Source of the DNA: Planctomycetota bacterium
Lineage (GTDB): Bacteria; Planctomycetota; UBA8108; JACQVS01
DNA: 64,000 nt
NCBI GenBank assembly: GCA_016209605.1
Contig: JACQVS010000057.1
Location: 1-64,000, forward strand
Reading direction: 5' to 3'
A program made the position numbers and the translations under genes. Positions 15,517 through 55,932 of this stretch are shown one piece after another; within the stretch, counting starts at the first letter, position 1, and the number at the start of each line of letters is the position of its first letter. Below the pieces are notes generated by a model. The model saw only the letters and a list, made by a program, of their open reading frames with translations. It did no database searches and was not told the origin of the DNA.

Positions 15517-18500
15517 ATGTCTCTCAGCTCCCTCTGGCTCGGCGCGCTCTTCTTATGCTCCGATCCGGAATCGTTCCAGGTGGTCTTGAACGAGATCCAC
15601 TACCATCCGGCCGGCGGCGGCGACGAGGAGGAGTTTGTTGAGCTTTACCACGCCGGCACCCGGCCGGTGGATCTCTCGGGCTGGCAGTTCGTCGAGGGCA
15701 TCCAGTTCGTCTTTCCGCCTCGGACCATCCTCTACCCGGGGAGCGCTCTGGCCATCGCGGCCGACGCCGCGGCGCTGCGGCCGCGCTCGAGCCATCCCGA
15801 GGCGGTCATCGGCGATTACGCCGGCCGCCTGGGCAACGGCGGCGACCACCTCCGGCTCATCACCGCGGACCGGGTCACCGTCCTCGAGATGACCTTCACC
15901 GACGACAATCCGTGGCCCCAGGAGGCCGATGGGCTGGGTCCGTCCATGGAGCTGCGCTCGGCCCTGGATGATTACGACCTGCCGGGCTCCTGGACCGCCA
16001 GCCGGCGCTTGGGGGGCACGCCCGGCGAGGTCAATTCGACGGCGCTCCTCCTGCGCCGCGCCTACCTGATCTCCCGGGGAGCGGTCTGGAGCTACTTCAA
16101 GGGGACGCAGGAGCCGGCGGCGGGGACGGCTCAGTGGACTCAGGCCGCTTACGACGACTCCGGCTGGGCGAGCGGGGCCAGCGCCTTCGGCACGGGGGGC
16201 GCGGGACCCTTCGGCACCCCCCTGGACGACCTCCCCGGCGGCTACACTTCCATTTACTTCCGCAAAACTTTTTCGCTTCCCGCCGCCTCCCTTCCCCAGG
16301 ACCGCCTGCGCCTCGAGATCACCTACCAGGACGGCTTTGTGGCCTACGTCAACGGCCTCGAGCTCGCCCGCCGCGGCGTCGGGGGGAAGGCCGGCGAGGC
16401 CATCCCGTACGGAGCCGCGGCCCTGGCGGACTTCCCCAACGCCGCCTCGGAGGTCATCTCCTTCGCCGGCGCTGGAATGGCGGGCAGCCTGGCGCCGGAA
16501 GGGAATGTCCTCGCCGTCCAGGCCCTCAACGGCTCGCCGGGCGATGCCCAGTTCGCCTTTTCGGCGGAGCTGTTCCTCATTGAGGAGGAGGCGGCGGTCC
16601 CGCCGCCGCCGCCCGTGCCGGCGCGCCTCAGCGAGGTGAAGGGCGGCCCGGAAGGCTGGGTCGAGCTGGCCAACGACTCGAGCGAGCCCTTCGACCTCGA
16701 GGGGCTGACCATCGAGGCCCGCCCCGGATACGGCCGTCGGCACCGCTTCGATGCCCCGGCCCTCATCCCGGCGCGCGGCTTTTACGTCCTCGAAGGCGGC
16801 GGCTTTCAGGCCCTGGGGATCCCTCCCGCCATGGATCCGGCCGCCGGGGAGACGCTGGTCCTGCACCGGGATGGTCTCTGGCTGGATGCGCTCGAGTACC
16901 GTTTGCCCGATGCCGCCTTTTCCTTCGGCCGATCGAGCAGGGCCCCCTCGGCCCCCTCGGGGGGGGAGGGCGTCTGCGTCCAGCCGACCCCGGGCGCCGC
17001 CAACCAGGTGTCCCGGCAGGGCCAGATCGTCTTGAACGAGATACACTACCATCCCCAGCCGGAGAGCGGCCGGCCGGCGCCGGTCGAGTTCGTGGAGATC
17101 CACAACACCTCGGCCGAGCCGGTCGACTTGACGGGCTGGCGCTTCACGCGGGGGCTCTCCTTCTCCTTCGCCGCCGGAACCACACTCGCCGGCGGCGGCT
17201 ACCTGGTGATCGCTCCCGATCCGGCCGCCGTCCAGGCGCGCTACGGCGTGAACGGAGTCCTGGGCGGATTCGCCGGCGGGCTCAAGAACAGCGCCGAGAC
17301 CATCCAGCTGGCCGATCCGCTGGGCAACGCCGCGGACCGCGTGCGGTACGCCGACGATGGCGCCTGGCCGGCCGAGGCCGATGGGCAGGGGAAGACCCTG
17401 GAGCTCCGCCATCCCGCCCTCGACAACCGCCTGGGGCTGTCCTGGGCGGCGAGCCCCGGCGCGGGCACGCCGGGCTCGAGGAACGGAGCCTTCCAGAGCG
17501 CTCCGCCCCCCGCCCTCGGGGAGGCGGCCCACGAGCCGCTGCTCCCGGCCTCGCCGGATGCCGTTCTGGTGACCGTGCGGGCCAGCGCCGTTCCCCAGGA
17601 CCCGCTCTCCATGACCTTGCGCCACCGCCGCGAGGGGCAGGGGGGCTTCGCGTCCGCCCCGATGTTCGACGACGGCCTGCACGGCGATGGCGATCCGGCC
17701 GATGGCGTTTTCGCGGGGATCATCCCGCCGCAGCCCGACCAGTCGGTGGTGCAGTTTTACTTCGAGGCGCTGGACGGCGGGGGGCGGACGGCGGCGCTGC
17801 CGCGCAACGCCCCGCAGGAGAGCTATCTCTTCTTCGTCGATGACTCCCCGCCGCCGGAGACCCTTCCCCGCTTCCGCCTGGTCATGACCAGGGCCGACCG
17901 ACAGAATCTCGAGACCCGGTCGCCGTCGAGTAACGTCGAGCTGCCGGCGACGGTGATTTACAAGGGGCGCGCCCATTACCGCTCGGGCGTGCGCTACCGC
18001 GGGCGCTCGTCGCGGACCTACTCGGTGAAGTCCTACAAGGTCGCCTTGAACGATGAAAACCCCCTCGAAGGGGTGGCCGATCTGGCGCTCAACGGGCGCA
18101 ATATCTACCACCAGCGCATCGGCATGGACCTCTTCCGGCGCGCCGGCCTGCCCTACTCCCGCAACCAGCTGGTGCACCTGGCCTTGAACGGCGATGACCT
18201 CGGGCTGCGCATCCGCATGGAGCGGGTCGACGAAAGGTACCTCGAGTACCATTTTCCCGGCCGCGAGGGGGGAAACCTGTACCGCGGCGATTTGCAGGCA
18301 ACCTTGAATTACGTGGGAAACAATCCCGACTCCTACCGGCCTTACTATCTCAAGGAGAACAACCAGGACCTCGACGACTACTCCGACATCATCCAGCTCT
18401 GCAACGTCTTCACCAACGCCTCCGGCGCCGAATTTCCCGCCGCCATCGACCCTCTGATCGATGTCCCGGAGTGGCTGCGCTTCCTCGCCCTCCACAACGT

Positions 18501-21000
18501 CGTCAGCAACCTGGAGGGAGGCATTTATCGTGACACGGGCGACGACTACTTTATCTACCGCCGGTCCGGCGGCGGCGTCGAGCCGGACCGGTGGGTGATG
18601 ATCCCCTGGGACTTCGACGACATCTTCGGCGATGTCCAGGAGCGGGTGCCCCGGGTGACGGTGCCTTCCACCCTGCGCCTCGTCCAGAACGCGTCAACAG
18701 GCGGGCCCAGGTACTTCTGCCAGGTGCGCTCGCTGGCGGAGGATGAGTTCTCCCCCCCGGTGACCAACGCGCGCATCAACACCCTCGCCGGCCTCTTCCC
18801 GGAGGACACCCTCAACGCCCAGAAGAACTTCGTCATCAACCGCCAGGCGTACCTCCTGGGGGCGGCGCGGTCCCGTCTCACCGCCGAGTTCCGCGGCGGC
18901 GCGCTTCTTCCCAAGGGCGGCTCGTGGAAGTTCAAGAAGGGCACGGAGGCGCTGCCGGGAGGGGAAAACGGCTGGACCTCCCTGGACTTCGACGACTCCT
19001 CGTGGAACAGCGGGCTGGCCGGCTTCGGCTACGCCGCCGGGGAAAACGCCACCGTGCTCTCCGACATGCAAGGCAGCTACAGCACGGTTTACCTGCGGCG
19101 CCGGTTCACCGTGGCCGATCCGCAGGCCCTCGCCAGCTTGAACCTGCTGGTGGACTACGATGATGGATTCGTCGCTTTCTTGAACGGGGTGGAGGTGGCC
19201 CGGGCCCTTTACAACGGGCCGGCCGATCCGGTCCCTTTCAACGCCCTGGCCAGCGATTTCCGCGATCCGGGCGCGCCGCTCGCCGTCGACCTGCGGCCTT
19301 ACCTTTCCAGCCTGCGCGCCGGCGAAAACATCCTGGCGGTGGTGGGGATCAACTACGTGATCGACAGCCGCGACTTCACCATCAATCCGTGGCTCGATCC
19401 GGGGAGCGGCAACTCCTTCGGCTGCGGCGGGCTGCTCTTCACCACGGCGAGCCTGGGGGAGCTGGGCGGCAGCCTGCCGCTGTGCCAGGCCGCGGCCGTG
19501 GCGGTGAACGGCGACCTGGCCCTCTTCGGGGCGGGCAGCTGGAGCTGTCCCGTGACCTTGAGCGCGCCGGAGTCGCTTTTCCATGTGGAGGCCCTCGGCT
19601 TCGAAGGGGAGATCATCGATCAGCTCGATGTCCGCGTGATCCTGGGAACCGGCGTGCAGGCGGTGTCGCAGAACATCTCCGCCAGCGCCACATGGCCCGG
19701 CGATGGATCCCTTTACGTGGTGCCGGGGAGCATCAGCGTGGCGGCGGGGGCCGTCTTGACCATTGCCGCCGGCGCGACCGTTCTCCTGGGGCCCGGCGTC
19801 ACCTTGCGGGTCGAAGGGCGGCTGGCGGTGGAGGGGACGCCGGAGCGGCCGGTCCGCTTCAGCAGCGCTTCCTGCTCGGGGGAGTGGGGCGGGATCGCCT
19901 TCGTGAACTCCAGCGAGGGCAGCCGCCTCGCCGGCGCCCGCTTCGAGCGTTGCGCCGGGGCCATGAACGGCCAGACGGCGCTGCCGGGGAGCCTGGCGGC
20001 GGTCAACTCCAGCCTGGAGGTGGCGGGCTGCTCTTTCATCGGCCTCTCTCAGCGCGCCCTCTCGATTCAAGGCGGGAGCGCTCTGGTGGAGGACTGCCTC
20101 TTCGAGCGCCTGCCGGGGGCCATTCGCGTGGAGAACGCCAAAGCCACCGTCCGCCGCAACCAGGCGCGCGAGGTCGAGGGGCTGGCGGACGCCATTCAGG
20201 TGATCGGCGGCGCCGCCGGCGATGGAGCCATCGAGGACAACCGCATCGAACGGACCAACCGCCACGGCATCGCGCTTGACGGCTCGGCGTTCCCGGTGGC
20301 CGGCAACTGGGTGAGCGGGGCCCTGGGGCGCGGCCTCTCCCTGTCCGGGGGCGCGGCGCCGCGGCTGGAGCGCAACTTGATTTATTTCTGTGATATCGCC
20401 GTGGGCAGCGACTCCGCCGCCGATCTCGTGCTGGCGCACCACACCCTGGCCTTCAACTCCATCGCGCTGGCGCCGGCGGGGGCCTGGCAGGTGCTGGATT
20501 CGATCATCTGGGAAAACTCCAAGCTCATCTCCGAGAGCGCTCCCGGCGCGGCGAGCTTCGCGTACTCGGACATCGGCCCGGAAAACCTTCCGCCCGGAGC
20601 TGGCAATCTCAGCGGCGACCCGCTCTTCAAGGACCCGCTGCAAGCCGACTTCTCCCTCATGCGCGGCTCGCCGGCGATCGGCCGGGCCCAGGACGGCGGC
20701 GACATGGGGGCCTTCTCCTTTGACCGCAGCGGCTTCCTGCGCGGCGACGCCGACTTGAACGGCGGCGTGGAGATCGCCGATGCCGTTCAAATATTGCTAT
20801 GGCTGTTTCAGGGAGGATCGCTGGGATGCCTGGCGCCGGCGGACGCCAACTCCGACGGCGCCATCGACCTCTCCGATGCGGTGCGCCTCCTGATCCGGCT
20901 CTTCCTGGGCGGCCAGGCGGAGATTGCGCCGCCCTACCCCGAGTGCGGCCCCGACCCGGCTCCCGGCCTCTTCCCACCGTGCGAGACGGGCTGCCCGTAG
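15517..21000 (+). CDS. Giant exported LTD / CotH / beta-helix / dockerin-like protein
   Basis: An 1827-residue, probably surface-associated protein. Order: a short signal peptide; a lamin-tail domain (about 25-150, FQVVLNEIHYHP); a galactose-binding-like beta sandwich (about 190-350); a degenerate and then a second full lamin-tail domain (about 370-650, QIVLNEIHYHPQPESG); a CotH kinase-like domain (about 785-1040, with VRYRGRSSRTYSVKSYK and WVMIPWDFDDIFGD); another sandwich (about 1135-1300); and a right-handed beta helix (about 1400-1650). It ends in a dockerin-like pair (GDADLNGGVEIADAVQIL and DANSDGAIDLSDAVRLL) plus a Cys tail. CotH kinases phosphorylate spore-coat proteins in Bacillus, so it may modify secreted proteins or polymers, though this is inference. 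It stands alone between two hairpins. Confidence 0.85.
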   Translation: MSLSSLWLGALFLCSDPESFQVVLNEIHYHPAGGGDEEEFVELYHAGTRPVDLSGWQFVEGIQFVFPPRTILYPGSALAIAADAAALRPRSSHPEAVIGDYAGRLGNGGDHLRLITADRVTVLEMTFTDDNPWPQEADGLGPSMELRSALDDYDLPGSWTASRRLGGTPGEVNSTALLLRRAYLISRGAVWSYFKGTQEPAAGTAQWTQAAYDDSGWASGASAFGTGGAGPFGTPLDDLPGGYTSIYFRKTFSLPAASLPQDRLRLEITYQDGFVAYVNGLELARRGVGGKAGEAIPYGAAALADFPNAASEVISFAGAGMAGSLAPEGNVLAVQALNGSPGDAQFAFSAELFLIEEEAAVPPPPPVPARLSEVKGGPEGWVELANDSSEPFDLEGLTIEARPGYGRRHRFDAPALIPARGFYVLEGGGFQALGIPPAMDPAAGETLVLHRDGLWLDALEYRLPDAAFSFGRSSRAPSAPSGGEGVCVQPTPGAANQVSRQGQIVLNEIHYHPQPESGRPAPVEFVEIHNTSAEPVDLTGWRFTRGLSFSFAAGTTLAGGGYLVIAPDPAAVQARYGVNGVLGGFAGGLKNSAETIQLADPLGNAADRVRYADDGAWPAEADGQGKTLELRHPALDNRLGLSWAASPGAGTPGSRNGAFQSAPPPALGEAAHEPLLPASPDAVLVTVRASAVPQDPLSMTLRHRREGQGGFASAPMFDDGLHGDGDPADGVFAGIIPPQPDQSVVQFYFEALDGGGRTAALPRNAPQESYLFFVDDSPPPETLPRFRLVMTRADRQNLETRSPSSNVELPATVIYKGRAHYRSGVRYRGRSSRTYSVKSYKVALNDENPLEGVADLALNGRNIYHQRIGMDLFRRAGLPYSRNQLVHLALNGDDLGLRIRMERVDERYLEYHFPGREGGNLYRGDLQATLNYVGNNPDSYRPYYLKENNQDLDDYSDIIQLCNVFTNASGAEFPAAIDPLIDVPEWLRFLALHNVVSNLEGGIYRDTGDDYFIYRRSGGGVEPDRWVMIPWDFDDIFGDVQERVPRVTVPSTLRLVQNASTGGPRYFCQVRSLAEDEFSPPVTNARINTLAGLFPEDTLNAQKNFVINRQAYLLGAARSRLTAEFRGGALLPKGGSWKFKKGTEALPGGENGWTSLDFDDSSWNSGLAGFGYAAGENATVLSDMQGSYSTVYLRRRFTVADPQALASLNLLVDYDDGFVAFLNGVEVARALYNGPADPVPFNALASDFRDPGAPLAVDLRPYLSSLRAGENILAVVGINYVIDSRDFTINPWLDPGSGNSFGCGGLLFTTASLGELGGSLPLCQAAAVAVNGDLALFGAGSWSCPVTLSAPESLFHVEALGFEGEIIDQLDVRVILGTGVQAVSQNISASATWPGDGSLYVVPGSISVAAGAVLTIAAGATVLLGPGVTLRVEGRLAVEGTPERPVRFSSASCSGEWGGIAFVNSSEGSRLAGARFERCAGAMNGQTALPGSLAAVNSSLEVAGCSFIGLSQRALSIQGGSALVEDCLFERLPGAIRVENAKATVRRNQAREVEGLADAIQVIGGAAGDGAIEDNRIERTNRHGIALDGSAFPVAGNWVSGALGRGLSLSGGAAPRLERNLIYFCDIAVGSDSAADLVLAHHTLAFNSIALAPAGAWQVLDSIIWENSKLISESAPGAASFAYSDIGPENLPPGAGNLSGDPLFKDPLQADFSLMRGSPAIGRAQDGGDMGAFSFDRSGFLRGDADLNGGVEIADAVQILLWLFQGGSLGCLAPADANSDGAIDLSDAVRLLIRLFLGGQAEIAPPYPECGPDPAPGLFPPCETGCP

Positions 21001-50517: not shown

Positions 50518-53500
50518 TTAGGGAGTGCATAAGGGAAAGGAATCGCAGGTCAAACTATCTGCCGTCGGATCGGAACCGCAAGCGGCAAAAGGGGCTGGCA
50601 GCGGGCGCCCGCCAAGGAGGTGTTGCAGCGTGATCACAGCATCGCCAATCGTCAAACGGCCATCGTCATTGGCATCGGCAGCTTTTGCGCATGCTGGCTT
50701 TTCACCCCGAAGGAAAAGAAAATTTAATACGGCGATGGCATCCGCTAGTTCGATCGAGCCATCGGGAACGGCATCTCCGCGCCGAAAGAGAGTCACTATC
50801 GCATCGGCCGGATCCCTCTGGTAAAGGAGGACTTTCACTTTCGCCAATGGCTGCAATTGCTCCCCCAAATAATTCGCTTCCGCTCGAATCCCTTCGTGCT
50901 CTTCCGGAGCCACCAGCTCTACAGCATGAACCGGCTGGCCGAGAACGGCAACGACCACCGGCGGATCGAAGACCACCCAGTGGCGGATATGCTCGTTGTG
51001 GCGGGCCGCGGAGTAAACCAAATGCCAGTAATCGGAAACCTCCCGGCGCTGCCCGCCGATGATGACCTCCGCGCGGGTCAAGCTCGCCGGCCCCTTGGCG
51101 TTTTGCGGCTCCGGCCGGAACCGCTCCTCTAGCCGGAAAGAGGAGCCATCCTCAAGCTCCGCTCGAATCACCCAAAGGGGGATCGCCTCAAAGGCGCAAG
51201 ATGAATAGAAGAGGTCACTGATTTCTTCCCCATTCCGAAGGCTGCCTTGAAGGAGCAAATTCTCCACAAGCAGGTCCTTCCCCAAGATCCGGGTGCGCTC
51301 CACCGGCTCGCCGTCCTGGGCCTGGTAGTCGATGAGCGAAAGGTTGAGCTGAAAGCTTTCCCCGCCCGCCAGGCGGAACTCCTGTTCGTAGGTGAAGCGA
51401 TAGGTGATCCTTCCATTGCCGTTCTGGAGCTTGGTTATTTGGAAGAGGCCATCGGCTTTTGGCGAGGCTAGCGCCGCTTGCTTTCCGATGCGAACCTCCT
51501 CAAGAAGATTCCCCGGGAACGTATCGATCTTGGTCGGCAACGGAATTCTCCCCGGAGTAAATTTCAGCACGCTTTTGAGTTCATACTCCGCGCGCGGTTC
51601 TCGCCCGATGGAAAAAGCTCCGCAAGCGGACGCGCCGGACGAAATCTCCAGCTCGAAAGTGGGGCTGGGGCCTGCGGACTCGGTTCGGAGGAACGGCCGG
51701 ACCTGCTTTACGGCGAGGGTGCCAGCGGCTTCGATCTTGAACTCGAGATCCAAAAGCACCTGCTCGCGCCGGTATTTGCCCAATTGGACGGGGAAATTCC
51801 GGTCGATGTGCCAAAGGAGGAGGCCGAACTCTTCGAGGTGGGCCTCTGATAGAATGAATTTTCCCTCTGGAAGCAGCGAAGAGCTCCTGGTGCGAATGAT
51901 GCGAGCCACTTTTCCATCCACGATCTCCAGGAGGTCCTTCTCTGCCAGAATTCCCGGATCCGGGCTGACGACGCTCGTCTCCCCGAGCTGCGCGATCACA
52001 ACATACCGGTTGTCCTCGAGGTTGGCCGGATTGCCGGTGAAGGCCACGCCGTTGGCGCTTTCATCGGTGAATGTTTGGGTGACGAGAATCCCCATGGCGG
52101 CAAGCTCCTGCGGAATGCCGTAATATTCGCGCTCCTCAAAGGCGCGGTAGTTCCACAGGCTTCCCCAGACCAGTTTCAGAGCACGGGCGATGCCACGCTC
52201 CTCGAGCTTCGTCGGATCGCAGCGCGAAGGGCCGGTGTCGCCGACATCGAGATCGTCGGCAGCGCAGGCGGTAGTGGAGTCATAGAGACCGGCGCCGTTA
52301 AACTCGAGCACATCTTCTACGTTGGAGGAGGAGCGGAACCGCACCGGAATCGAAGTGCTCCCGAAAACTTCGAATATGCGCACTGCCAGCTGCCTCACCA
52401 GGCTGTCGCTCACCTCGCCCTTGTCCTCAACATGCTTCTGGAAAGCCTTCAGAAGCTCAAACCGGCGCTGGGAATTGGTCAAAAACACCTCATTGGCAAA
52501 AAGCTCTTTCAAATAATCCTCGTATGTCACCTCTTTTTTTGGACCCAAAGCTGAAAGGATGCGGTTCGATCTCATGAACTCGAGATAGTAGCTCATGGGA
52601 ATGGCGAATCCCTTCTCCCGGTACCGGCTCCACGGGCCCTCCAGAATGCGCTGCAAGCGGGCCAGATTGGCGGCTTTCCCGCCAAAGCGGGCTTCCGGAG
52701 GCAGCCGTTCTTCCGAAAGGTCCAAATCGTCGAGGCTGTTGAGATCGCGAAACTCCGCATCGAGCGCGGGAAGCTCGGAAAGGCTCGGACGGTTGGCGGC
52801 CCACCATCTTTCGGCATCGGCTTGCGACGCTTCCCGGACCTCGTATCCGCTCTCTCTCACCTCCAAGCGCACGAGCTTCCCTTCAAGGGAGGCGAACAGC
52901 TCCAGCGCGCCGGCGACGAAGGCGTTCGGGGTGCCGCGCCTGGCGGTGCGCACCGCCACGTGGCTGAGTTCCCCTTGCGGCTCGGCGGTGATCACTCCGC
53001 CCACCACCCCCTCGATGTCGCGCGGGGCGCGCTCGAGGATGAGGATGTCCTGGAAGCTGAGGAGGCCCTTGTTATTGGCCTCGTTGAAGGTCGCCTCGCT
53101 CAAGAGGCGCACCCGCCCATAGGCGGCGGCGGTGGTGTAGGCTTCGTAGGAGCCAGAGGGTTGCAGGCCGCCGAGATAGATGGGGAAGCCGGGGTTTTGC
53201 CATTTTTGGGCGCGCTCCGCTTCCGCCGGCGATCCGGGAAAGTAAGCGATAGGCCTCAAATGGAACGACCGGCTCAACCTCTCAAAAATATCTCGGACTT
53301 CCTCCACCCGGAGCGACTCCACCAGGTCGCTGAAATCCGCATAAATATTGAAGCCGTAAATCAACCCTTTTTCGGCGACAATCCGGGAAATCGACCCGAC
53401 GAAGTATTGCCGGGTGGCCCGCCGTCCGACCAGCTTTTCATACTCCTCTGCCGTGAGAGCTGGGAAGCGGTCCGGAAAGACCTGCCTCAGGAAGTCAGGA

Positions 53501-55932
53501 TGCAAGAGAAAGCGACGGGTGTTCTGATAGAGGGTTGGAAGAAGCGCGGCGCCATCCTTCACCGGGAGGAGGAACTTGACGAACCGGTCGCCCGGCCCAG
53601 AATTGCCGGCGGAAGCAGAAAACCGGTGGAACTCGGCTGGCGTGCAAAGGGCCTCCAGGTAATCCGCCTCTTCCGTGGAGGATTTGTTCTCAAGTACGCT
53701 CAAACTGTGCCCCTCGCGATTGTTGGTAATCAGGTCGATGTCCTGGTCGCCGTCCAAGTCACCAGGAAAAACGAAGCGGAGGCCGGTTCCGGCGGCGTAA
53801 TTAAGGGGCGGCTGGAAAGCGCCGTTGCCAATGCCGAAGAGGATGGACACGTTGTTTGTAGCTTCATTTCCCGTCACCAAGTCGAGCCGGCCGTCGCCGT
53901 CAAAATCCATTGCGACGACCGAGTAAGGCGGACCCCCGGCCGGAAAGTCCTTGGGCGCTTGGAAGGCGCCGCCGCCGTTCTGCATGAATATGGTCACATT
54001 TGCTGACTCCATATTGGCAGTGGCCAGATCCAAGTTCCGGTCGCCGTTGAAATCCGCCGCGATGACATGATGAGGATTGCGGGCCATGGGAAGATCTTTT
54101 CTTACCGGGAAATTACCTTTGCCATCATTTACAAGCAGCGTCACCTTTGCGGCGGTGGAATTGGCAACCGCAAGGTCCATGTCGCCATCTTGATCCAAAT
54201 CGACAGTCGCCAAGGCAATGGGGGAGGCCTGGACCCGGTAATCCCTGGGCAATCCCGCTTTGAACGTTCCATCATTCTGGTTAAAGAGCACGGAGATGTT
54301 GTTGGAACTTTGGTTGGCGCTTGCGGCATCGAGGTCGCCGTCGCCATCGAAATCGGCGAACTGGACATTGATGGGGGCGGAACCCACCGGGAACCGCTTT
54401 GGCGGGAAAAAGGAGCCCGAGCCTTTGTTTAAGTGGATGTAGAGACTGTGGTCCAGATTGTCGACCGTCGCCGCATCGACATCCCCGTCGCCGTCGACAT
54501 CCCCAACGGCCACGGACTGGGGATGTTCACCCCCAAAAACGAAGTTCTTTGATACAACCATGTTGCCATGCCCTTCGTTTTGGAGGTAGTAAAAGCTGCC
54601 GGGATGGGTGATGGCGGCGCTGAAGTCGAGATCTCCATCGCCATCGAAATCTGCCAGACTGCCGGAATGAGGCCGGCAACCCCGCGGATCAGCGCAACCC
54701 TTTAAAGGAATTTCCCTAATGGCTATCGAGAAGGAAGGTCCTTCATCGGCGCTCCAGACGACGAAAATTTTACTGAGCCCTCCGCCGACAAAAGCCACAT
54801 CTATGGCCCGGTCGCCGTCAAAATCCCGGGCCACCATGGACTGCGGAGATCCTTGGACACCCGCGGCTGAAGAGACCCCGAACTTTCCCGCCCCATCGTT
54901 GAATCTCACCGTGATCAGGTTCGAGGTGCCTATGGCCAAATCGGGGTCGCCATCGCGATCAAAATCGGCTAGGTCATGAATGGTGCCCTTGCTGTTAGTG
55001 ACGACAGGGGGTGAGAAAGTGCCATCGCCGCCATTCAAGTAGACGGCAATGGAGCTCGGTGTCAACACCAAGAGATCCATGGCTCCATCGCTGTTGACGT
55101 CTTTGGCGGTCACGACAGGGAGGCCGGTTTGAGGAATCGGATAGCTCGCCGGCGGGCCGAAGCGTCCAGATCCATCGTTTTTAAGAACGGAAAGGTCGCG
55201 GGATGCGGAATTCGCTGTGGCCAAGTCCAAATCCTGGTCTCCGTCGAAGTCGCCGGCGGCAGCCGAGTTTGGGCTGTCGCCTACCAGAAAATCAACCGGC
55301 TGACTGAAAACTCCAGCTCCGGTGTTCTTGAGCACCGAAACGGTGTCAGTGGGGCGATTCACGGCGATGAGGTCGGGAAGCGCATCTCCCGTCACCTCAC
55401 CGATGATGACCACTCGGGTGTCGCTCGATGAAGGATAACTTGCAGGAGGATTGAAGGCGCTGTTCCCATCGTTGGCTAACACCAGGAGCTGGTCGCCATT
55501 TGCCGTGACCGCATCCAAATCGCCGTCCCCATCGAGGTCGCCGAGGGCGAAAGCATAGAGGTTTCTTCCGGCTGCAGAGCTTGTTGGCGAAGAAAAGCGC
55601 CGGTTGCCATTGTTGGTTAGCACAGAAATCACTGAATTGCCCGCAGAATCGCGGGCGGTGCCGATTAAGTCCAAGTTTCCGTCCCTATCCAAATCGCCTC
55701 CTCCCACTAACCGGGGCGCGGCCGTGAGAGAAATTTCCTGCCCTCCCGCCTCAAACCGAACCGGTACCACCTCGCATTCATCCGGAACAAGGTTGCGATT
55801 GCAGTCATCGCTTCGCCCGGCTTGAATGTCGGAGCCATCTTCAGCCTCATTGCCGTTGCAATCGGCGCCGAAAGAAACTTTGAACGCAGCGAGCGCTATC
55901 CCAATAGGAAGAATCCATTTAATCCATTCCAT
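50518..55932 (-). CDS. Giant exported FG-GAP / swivelling-His / ATP-grasp (PEP-synthase-like) / dockerin-like protein
   Basis: An 1804-residue protein with a signal peptide (about 1-22, ILPIGIALAAFKVSFGADC) and a calcium-repeat start. About 14 FG-GAP-like units form propeller(s) at about 77-760 (DLDRDGNLDLIGT, DFDGDQDLDLATAN, DVDGDGDVDAATVD). A mixed domain (about 770-960) leads to a PEP-utilising swivelling domain with GVITAEPQGELSHVAVRTAR (His about 990). A PPDK/PEP-synthase-type ATP-grasp follows (about 1078-1390: FGGKAANLARLQ, PVRFRSSSNVEDVLEFNGAG, LYDSTTAC). The C-terminus (about 1711-1804) is a dockerin-like pair and Cys tail. The order His-domain before ATP-grasp is the reverse of PEP synthase and like plant glucan, water dikinase. 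ATP supply outside the cell is a puzzle. The ATG at 55932 fits the signal peptide. Confidence 0.85.
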   Translation of the reverse strand: MEWIKWILPIGIALAAFKVSFGADCNGNEAEDGSDIQAGRSDDCNRNLVPDECEVVPVRFEAGGQEISLTAAPRLVGGGDLDRDGNLDLIGTARDSAGNSVISVLTNNGNRRFSSPTSSAAGRNLYAFALGDLDGDGDLDAVTANGDQLLVLANDGNSAFNPPASYPSSSDTRVVIIGEVTGDALPDLIAVNRPTDTVSVLKNTGAGVFSQPVDFLVGDSPNSAAAGDFDGDQDLDLATANSASRDLSVLKNDGSGRFGPPASYPIPQTGLPVVTAKDVNSDGAMDLLVLTPSSIAVYLNGGDGTFSPPVVTNSKGTIHDLADFDRDGDPDLAIGTSNLITVRFNDGAGKFGVSSAAGVQGSPQSMVARDFDGDRAIDVAFVGGGLSKIFVVWSADEGPSFSIAIREIPLKGCADPRGCRPHSGSLADFDGDGDLDFSAAITHPGSFYYLQNEGHGNMVVSKNFVFGGEHPQSVAVGDVDGDGDVDAATVDNLDHSLYIHLNKGSGSFFPPKRFPVGSAPINVQFADFDGDGDLDAASANQSSNNISVLFNQNDGTFKAGLPRDYRVQASPIALATVDLDQDGDMDLAVANSTAAKVTLLVNDGKGNFPVRKDLPMARNPHHVIAADFNGDRNLDLATANMESANVTIFMQNGGGAFQAPKDFPAGGPPYSVVAMDFDGDGRLDLVTGNEATNNVSILFGIGNGAFQPPLNYAAGTGLRFVFPGDLDGDQDIDLITNNREGHSLSVLENKSSTEEADYLEALCTPAEFHRFSASAGNSGPGDRFVKFLLPVKDGAALLPTLYQNTRRFLLHPDFLRQVFPDRFPALTAEEYEKLVGRRATRQYFVGSISRIVAEKGLIYGFNIYADFSDLVESLRVEEVRDIFERLSRSFHLRPIAYFPGSPAEAERAQKWQNPGFPIYLGGLQPSGSYEAYTTAAAYGRVRLLSEATFNEANNKGLLSFQDILILERAPRDIEGVVGGVITAEPQGELSHVAVRTARRGTPNAFVAGALELFASLEGKLVRLEVRESGYEVREASQADAERWWAANRPSLSELPALDAEFRDLNSLDDLDLSEERLPPEARFGGKAANLARLQRILEGPWSRYREKGFAIPMSYYLEFMRSNRILSALGPKKEVTYEDYLKELFANEVFLTNSQRRFELLKAFQKHVEDKGEVSDSLVRQLAVRIFEVFGSTSIPVRFRSSSNVEDVLEFNGAGLYDSTTACAADDLDVGDTGPSRCDPTKLEERGIARALKLVWGSLWNYRAFEEREYYGIPQELAAMGILVTQTFTDESANGVAFTGNPANLEDNRYVVIAQLGETSVVSPDPGILAEKDLLEIVDGKVARIIRTRSSSLLPEGKFILSEAHLEEFGLLLWHIDRNFPVQLGKYRREQVLLDLEFKIEAAGTLAVKQVRPFLRTESAGPSPTFELEISSGASACGAFSIGREPRAEYELKSVLKFTPGRIPLPTKIDTFPGNLLEEVRIGKQAALASPKADGLFQITKLQNGNGRITYRFTYEQEFRLAGGESFQLNLSLIDYQAQDGEPVERTRILGKDLLVENLLLQGSLRNGEEISDLFYSSCAFEAIPLWVIRAELEDGSSFRLEERFRPEPQNAKGPASLTRAEVIIGGQRREVSDYWHLVYSAARHNEHIRHWVVFDPPVVVAVLGQPVHAVELVAPEEHEGIRAEANYLGEQLQPLAKVKVLLYQRDPADAIVTLFRRGDAVPDGSIELADAIAVLNFLFLRGEKPACAKAADANDDGRLTIGDAVITLQHLLGGRPLPAPFAACGSDPTADSLTCDSFPLCTP

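Follow-up and report, generated by a model that had tools for sequence, protein, structure and literature searches.

A propeller-bearing protein of a Planctomycetota bacterium represents a new family, predicted to be exported, within the phosphohistidine dikinase superfamily

Introduction

Can a phosphohistidine dikinase operate outside the cytoplasm? To our knowledge, the known dikinases of this superfamily act in the cytoplasm or the plastid, where ATP is plentiful. Free ATP is normally scarce outside the cytoplasm, which counts against an exported dikinase. The question is raised by a gene in the first 64,000 nucleotides of contig JACQVS010000057.1 of a Planctomycetota bacterium (this whole stretch is referred to here as the window), which a preliminary description had read as an exported protein recalling glucan, water dikinase (GWD). 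Export signals and an apparently intact active site recur in relatives from many phyla, posing the question of what the extracytoplasmic substrate would be and where its ATP would come from.

Architecture of the gene

The gene lies on the minus strand as a single open frame running from an ATG at 55932 to a TAA at 50518-50520, with no internal stops. An alternative GTG start upstream (56001) would add 23 residues, and the signal peptide comes after the ATG. The chain is arranged as follows:

50518..55932, minus: whole gene, 1804-residue exported dikinase-like protein (open frame and translation)
55864..55932, minus: predicted signal peptide, residues 1-23 (MEWIKWILPIGIALAAFKVSFGA), with a charged start, a hydrophobic core and small residues at the cut, as read by eye
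55768..55863, minus: short Cys/Asp-rich linker, DCNGNEAED...DCNRNLVPDECE; a similar linker occurs in the FG-GAP protein beside the second dikinase copy
53677..55755, minus: FG-GAP repeats with DxDxDGxxD-type calcium motifs (12 Pfam stretches)
53071..53670, minus: family-specific N-domain, residues 755-954, with K786, H811 and R841 (conservation and model)
52798..53070, minus: phosphohistidine (swivel) domain (weak GWD1_pHisD match and model)
51673..52707, minus: PPDK_N ATP-grasp domain (Pfam, residues 1082-1420, E 4e-18; Foldseek match to 5hv6)
50803..51663, minus: beta-rich C-domain, residues 1424-1710 (no Pfam family; model)
50623..50787, minus: weak dockerin-type tail (Dockerin_1 below the Pfam cut-off, residues 1719-1768, E 0.077)

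The claimed succession of signal peptide, propellers, swivelling domain, ATP-grasp and dockerin-like end in one chain is therefore real and can be given exact coordinates, with a weak match for the dockerin, and the motifs GELSHVAVR (from residue 987) and RSSSNVED (from residue 1200) sit where they had been placed. The FG-GAP_3 matches (12 stretches, E 6e-85) run to about residue 752, and the DxDxDGxxD-type motif occurs 15 times across the chain, twice within the linker that precedes the repeats. The GWD1_pHisD match (residues 972-1038, E 0.057) reaches 13.4 bits against a cut-off of 27. The structure model of residues 755-1710 has a mean pLDDT of 91.6 and a pTM of 0.72. An NCBIfam identity as a T9SS M6-like protein was rejected, the match overlying the propellers and falling far below the model's cut-off.

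FG-GAP repeats and the dikinase module are also joined in one chain in other assemblies (L068, L071, L072, L074 and L103) and, because the same fusion recurs there, it is not an assembly artefact. The same genome contains a second copy (contig C4) of 1082 residues that lacks the propellers, retains every active-site residue and is 45% identical to the window protein across the shared module; it adjoins a separate FG-GAP/dockerin gene. At this second locus (L008; 204-2918, 2955-6203 and 6286-8949) the dikinase is flanked by FG-GAP proteins, so that propeller/dockerin and dikinase parts are separate genes there and one fused chain in the window. A further combination is found in a 2242-residue Acidimicrobiales protein (L123, 2258-8983), in which cadherin-like domains are joined to the dikinase module.

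Conservation of the active site

The preliminary description would have been overturned by loss of the ATP-binding Lys, Arg or Glu residues, and no such loss was seen. In an alignment of 74 family members, which supplies the counts listed below, the relevant positions are present and conserved, and they align with residues of rifampin phosphotransferase (RPH):

52960..52962, minus: His991, predicted phosphate-carrying histidine (74/74)
52675..52677, minus: Lys1086, at the position of Lys22 in RPH and PPDK (74/74; alignment; PMC4844700)
52333..52335, minus: Arg1200, at the position of Arg117 in RPH (74/74; alignment)
52276..52278, minus: Ser1219, at the position of Thr136 in RPH (at least 95% conserved)
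51742..51744, minus: Glu1397, probably at the position of Glu297 in RPH (73/74; placed by a D-x-E pattern and partly by inference)
51697..51705, minus: Gln1410-Val-Arg1412, end of the ATP-grasp (Gln 72/74, Arg 73/74)

Arg1200 and Ser1219 are separated by 19 residues, the spacing between Arg117 and Thr136 in RPH. Replacement of Lys22 or Arg117 by Ala in RPH abolishes both rifampin resistance and phosphorylation, and Glu297 is dispensable (PMC4844700). Judged from these residues, the ATP-grasp and histidine machinery of the window protein is apparently intact, and its conservation favours activity without proving it.

A large family and its place in the superfamily

A scan of 84,980 GTDB species genomes yielded at least 529 confirmed relatives, the best 80 of which belong to Planctomycetota, Omnitrophota, Myxococcota, Verrucomicrobiota, Fibrobacterota, Bacteroidota, Spirochaetota and other groups. 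Within the phylum of the window, 14-15 of 294 genomes carry the family, and the nearest named relatives, at most 64% identical over the ATP-grasp, are found in Planctomycetota assemblies. PPDK_N was detected in all 71 members scanned, GWD1_pHisD in five of them (E<0.01) and the PEP-utilisers His domain in none. No family member was found on plasmids. A description of this exported family was not found in the open-access literature, an absence that is no proof; the relatives make up a large bacterial family, for the most part predicted to be exported and apparently undescribed.

The resemblance to GWD that had been proposed is supported. In bacterial GWD-type proteins the family profile matches collinearly across both the phosphohistidine domain and the ATP-grasp (135 bits), whereas PEP synthase (8a8e) is matched strongly over the ATP-grasp only (94 bits). 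Across the 294 genomes, GWD1_pHisD exceeds its cut-off in eight frames from four genomes. Another five matches fall short of it, and each of these, the window protein included, is a member of the exported family. On the other side, the family lacks the GWD N-terminal domain and forms its own clade: in a maximum-likelihood tree of the ATP-grasp, the exported family (100/99), GWD (100/100), PEPS and PPDK are four separate, strongly supported groups, and no nearest group is read from this tree because its root is arbitrary. None of the 294 genomes searched contains both a true GWD and a member of the exported family. The best fold match of the model in the PDB is RPH (5hv6; Foldseek TM 0.71-0.74 by target length), and it spans the ATP-grasp.

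A PPDK_N domain with its Lys, Arg and Glu and an invariant swivel histidine, the features of the superfamily that includes PPDK, PEPS, RPH and GWD, are all present, and several GWD and RPH features are absent. By sequence, the window protein is therefore placed in this superfamily but not in GWD proper: its clade stands apart and is taken here as a new, predicted exported family.

Some Planctomycetota genomes do contain GWD1-like genes (L161-L167), which combine Ig_N_CWD1, GWD1_pHisD and an ATP-grasp with permuted blocks. At L161 (1618-5094 and 5140-8841; genome G094, contig 37) such a gene lies downstream of a starch-synthase-like glycosyltransferase and adjoins a further GWD-type gene, which has a xylose-isomerase-like domain. 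This locus looks like bacterial alpha-glucan phosphorylation.

Predicted export

A cytosolic location, which would also have contradicted the preliminary description, is not what the sequence signals indicate. A simple heuristic scan for signal peptides and lipoboxes (the signal peptide of the window protein was read from the sequence) flagged an export signal in 59 of 68 assessable members, with a lipobox in 23; about five of the nine misses look exported by eye, bringing the figure to about 64/68. Four members (L107, L108, L116 and L147) have neither signal peptide nor lipobox and could be cytoplasmic forms. The same scan left six of seven bacterial GWDs unflagged, the seventh giving an internal, non-signal match. 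A cysteine pattern in the 74 aligned members agrees with these signals:

52219..52266, minus: insert delimited by Cys1223 and Cys1238, which are predicted to form a disulfide

Both cysteines are present in 36 members and both are missing in 38, a single one never occurring. This all-or-none pattern fits a disulfide made outside the cytoplasm, as support and not as proof, because both residues belong to a single insert that is passed on as one piece. The window protein and most of its relatives are thus predicted to be exported.

Family-specific domains and probable exported partners

In the 294 genomes searched, the N-domain never occurs apart from the dikinase module, and it was not detected in bacterial GWDs. 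Its model is confident (pLDDT 92.7) and has no PDB match at E<=0.001. K786, H811 and R841 are near-invariant in the family, and this domain would be the best candidate for an acceptor or docking site.

The C-domain (A8), which has no convincing Pfam match, is fused to the dikinase in Planctomycetota and Omnitrophota, is likewise fused in L102, and is encoded by its own gene, overlapping or touching that of the dikinase, in two Myxococcota (L084, 72.8 bits, E 7e-21; L089, 61.9 bits). A second candidate partner, A7, is a Cys-rich lipoprotein of about 350 residues encoded on the same strand beside the dikinase in 10 loci, mostly from Myxococcota, and has neither a convincing Pfam match nor a PDB match. 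In those 10 whole genomes there are 14 strong A7 matches (>200 bits), four of them second copies that were not used in choosing the loci, and every one is no more than about 2 kb from a dikinase; A7 is nearly single-copy in these genomes, with two further matches, weak at 28 and 26 bits, away from any dikinase. Since 14 of 14 strong matches are near a dikinase, the enzyme is likely to act together with an exported partner. No kinship between A7 and A8 was detectable on comparison. In the window, the neighbours of the dikinase gene encode a 3-keto-disaccharide hydrolase, a PMT-type glycosyltransferase and a CBS protein, with no obvious partner among them.

Genomic context

It had also been proposed that the dikinase and the large CotH protein at 15517 (15517-21000) jointly hint at extracytoplasmic phosphorylation. 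CotH matches number 32 in this 6.2 Mb genome, that protein included, and LTD/CotH neighbours occur at four dikinase loci (L079, L119, L120 and L141) against a rough chance expectation of about 4 in 72 loci, an estimate that carries over to the Verrucomicrobiota genomes concerned the figure of some 30 CotH matches per genome seen in the relatives. A functional link is thus not supported, though neither is it disproved. CotH itself is greatly expanded in this genome and in most of its closer relatives (12-62 per genome).

The genome has 99 Dockerin_1 (PF00404) matches, and the weak tail of the window protein resembles the other 98 in kind. Cohesin matches (PF00963) are few and weak, three of them in a single 858-residue frame on contig C53. 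In such a dockerin-rich, cohesin-poor genome, the cohesins may have diverged, or the tail may be used differently.

Proposed function and alternatives

The reading that we favour, with a probability of roughly 0.55, is that the window protein is an exported phosphohistidine dikinase from a new bacterial family standing beside GWD. ATP would be bound in the ATP-grasp and a phosphate transferred to His991 in the swivel domain, releasing AMP and phosphate; the His domain would then swing, and His991 would donate the phosphate to an acceptor that the N-domain holds (K786, H811, R841). The C-domain, a stand-alone gene product in some Myxococcota, may present the acceptor; in other Myxococcota a putative lipoprotein partner is found in its place. 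The FG-GAP propellers and the dockerin-type tail would tether the enzyme either to an extracellular polymer or to the cell surface. Its acceptor would most likely be an extracytoplasmic glycan or a partner protein, and cell lysis, leakage or some unusual compartment would have to supply the ATP. Glycans are not the sole candidates, as the acceptor could also be a partner or a small molecule. The wider proposition, that widespread exported phosphohistidine dikinases move ATP phosphate onto an extracytoplasmic acceptor with a dedicated exported partner and so constitute an undescribed class of bacterial phosphorylation, is put forward tentatively, at somewhat less than even odds.

A narrower form of this reading, namely a glucan-type dikinase that phosphorylates polysaccharide outside the cytoplasm, is unlikely, although GWD is the closest characterised kind by phosphohistidine domain and domain order and the propellers weakly match fungal lectins (E 0.001-0.09). 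The propellers are absent from most family members, neither Ig_N_CWD1 nor any other recognised carbohydrate-binding domain was found, and both the separate clade and the disjoint genome distribution argue against it.

Less probable again is that the protein is no phosphotransferase at all, being instead an exported protein that binds or hydrolyses ATP or is of ligase type. Not every enzyme of the fold is a kinase, as the weak family matches to the prodigiosin ligases PigC and RedH illustrate, and scavenging would be sensible because ATP outside cells is limited; the swivel histidine, invariant in 74/74, would be needless for a plain ATPase.

Phosphorylation of the partner itself (the C-domain protein or the A7 lipoprotein), as an enzyme-substrate or relay pair, is doubtful, and is given slightly less weight: the tight gene pairing and the fusion or fission of the C-domain speak for it, but an accessory or binding subunit would account for them too, and A7 and A8 are not detectably related. 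The least probable alternative, phosphorylation of a small molecule or antibiotic outside the cell as RPH does inside, has precedents in RPH, the best structural match, and in hydroxyphenylethanone kinase, both with small-molecule acceptors for this fold (PMC4844700, PMC12167813), but that match spans the ATP-grasp, and the N-domain resembles nothing in the PDB.

For the exported phosphohistidine dikinase that we favour, a near-single-copy lipoprotein partner, a separable C-domain and culturable hosts, among them the myxobacterium Hyalangium versicolor (L109) with its one lipoprotein-dikinase pair, make the family directly testable.

Comparison with known systems

PEPS and PPDK have the PPDK_N ATP-grasp in common with the window protein, but ATP-grasp and His domain follow in reverse order, the clades are separate and the PEP/pyruvate barrel is missing from the window protein. 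RPH shares the ATP-grasp fold and the positions of Lys22, Arg117 and probably Thr136 and Glu297. We know of no export signal in RPH, and its rifampin-binding domain is absent from the window protein. In RPH the His domain is C-terminal (PMC4844700), whereas here it precedes the ATP-grasp. Surface proteins of this genome that combine FG-GAP repeats with a dockerin tail resemble the window protein in export signal, propellers, Cys/Asp linker and tail, and differ from it in lacking the dikinase module. GWD differs in several respects: the window protein has no Ig_N_CWD1 (present in the bacterial GWD1-like L161) or starch-binding module, its GWD1_pHisD match stays below the Pfam cut-off, its family carries export signals and falls outside the GWD clade, and its ATP-grasp is unpermuted, whereas bacterial GWD1-like proteins place the RSxSN...GAGLYDS block after the WNERA block. 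With GWD and PWD it nevertheless shares a phosphohistidine domain immediately before the ATP-grasp and the RSSSNxED...GAGLYDS block.
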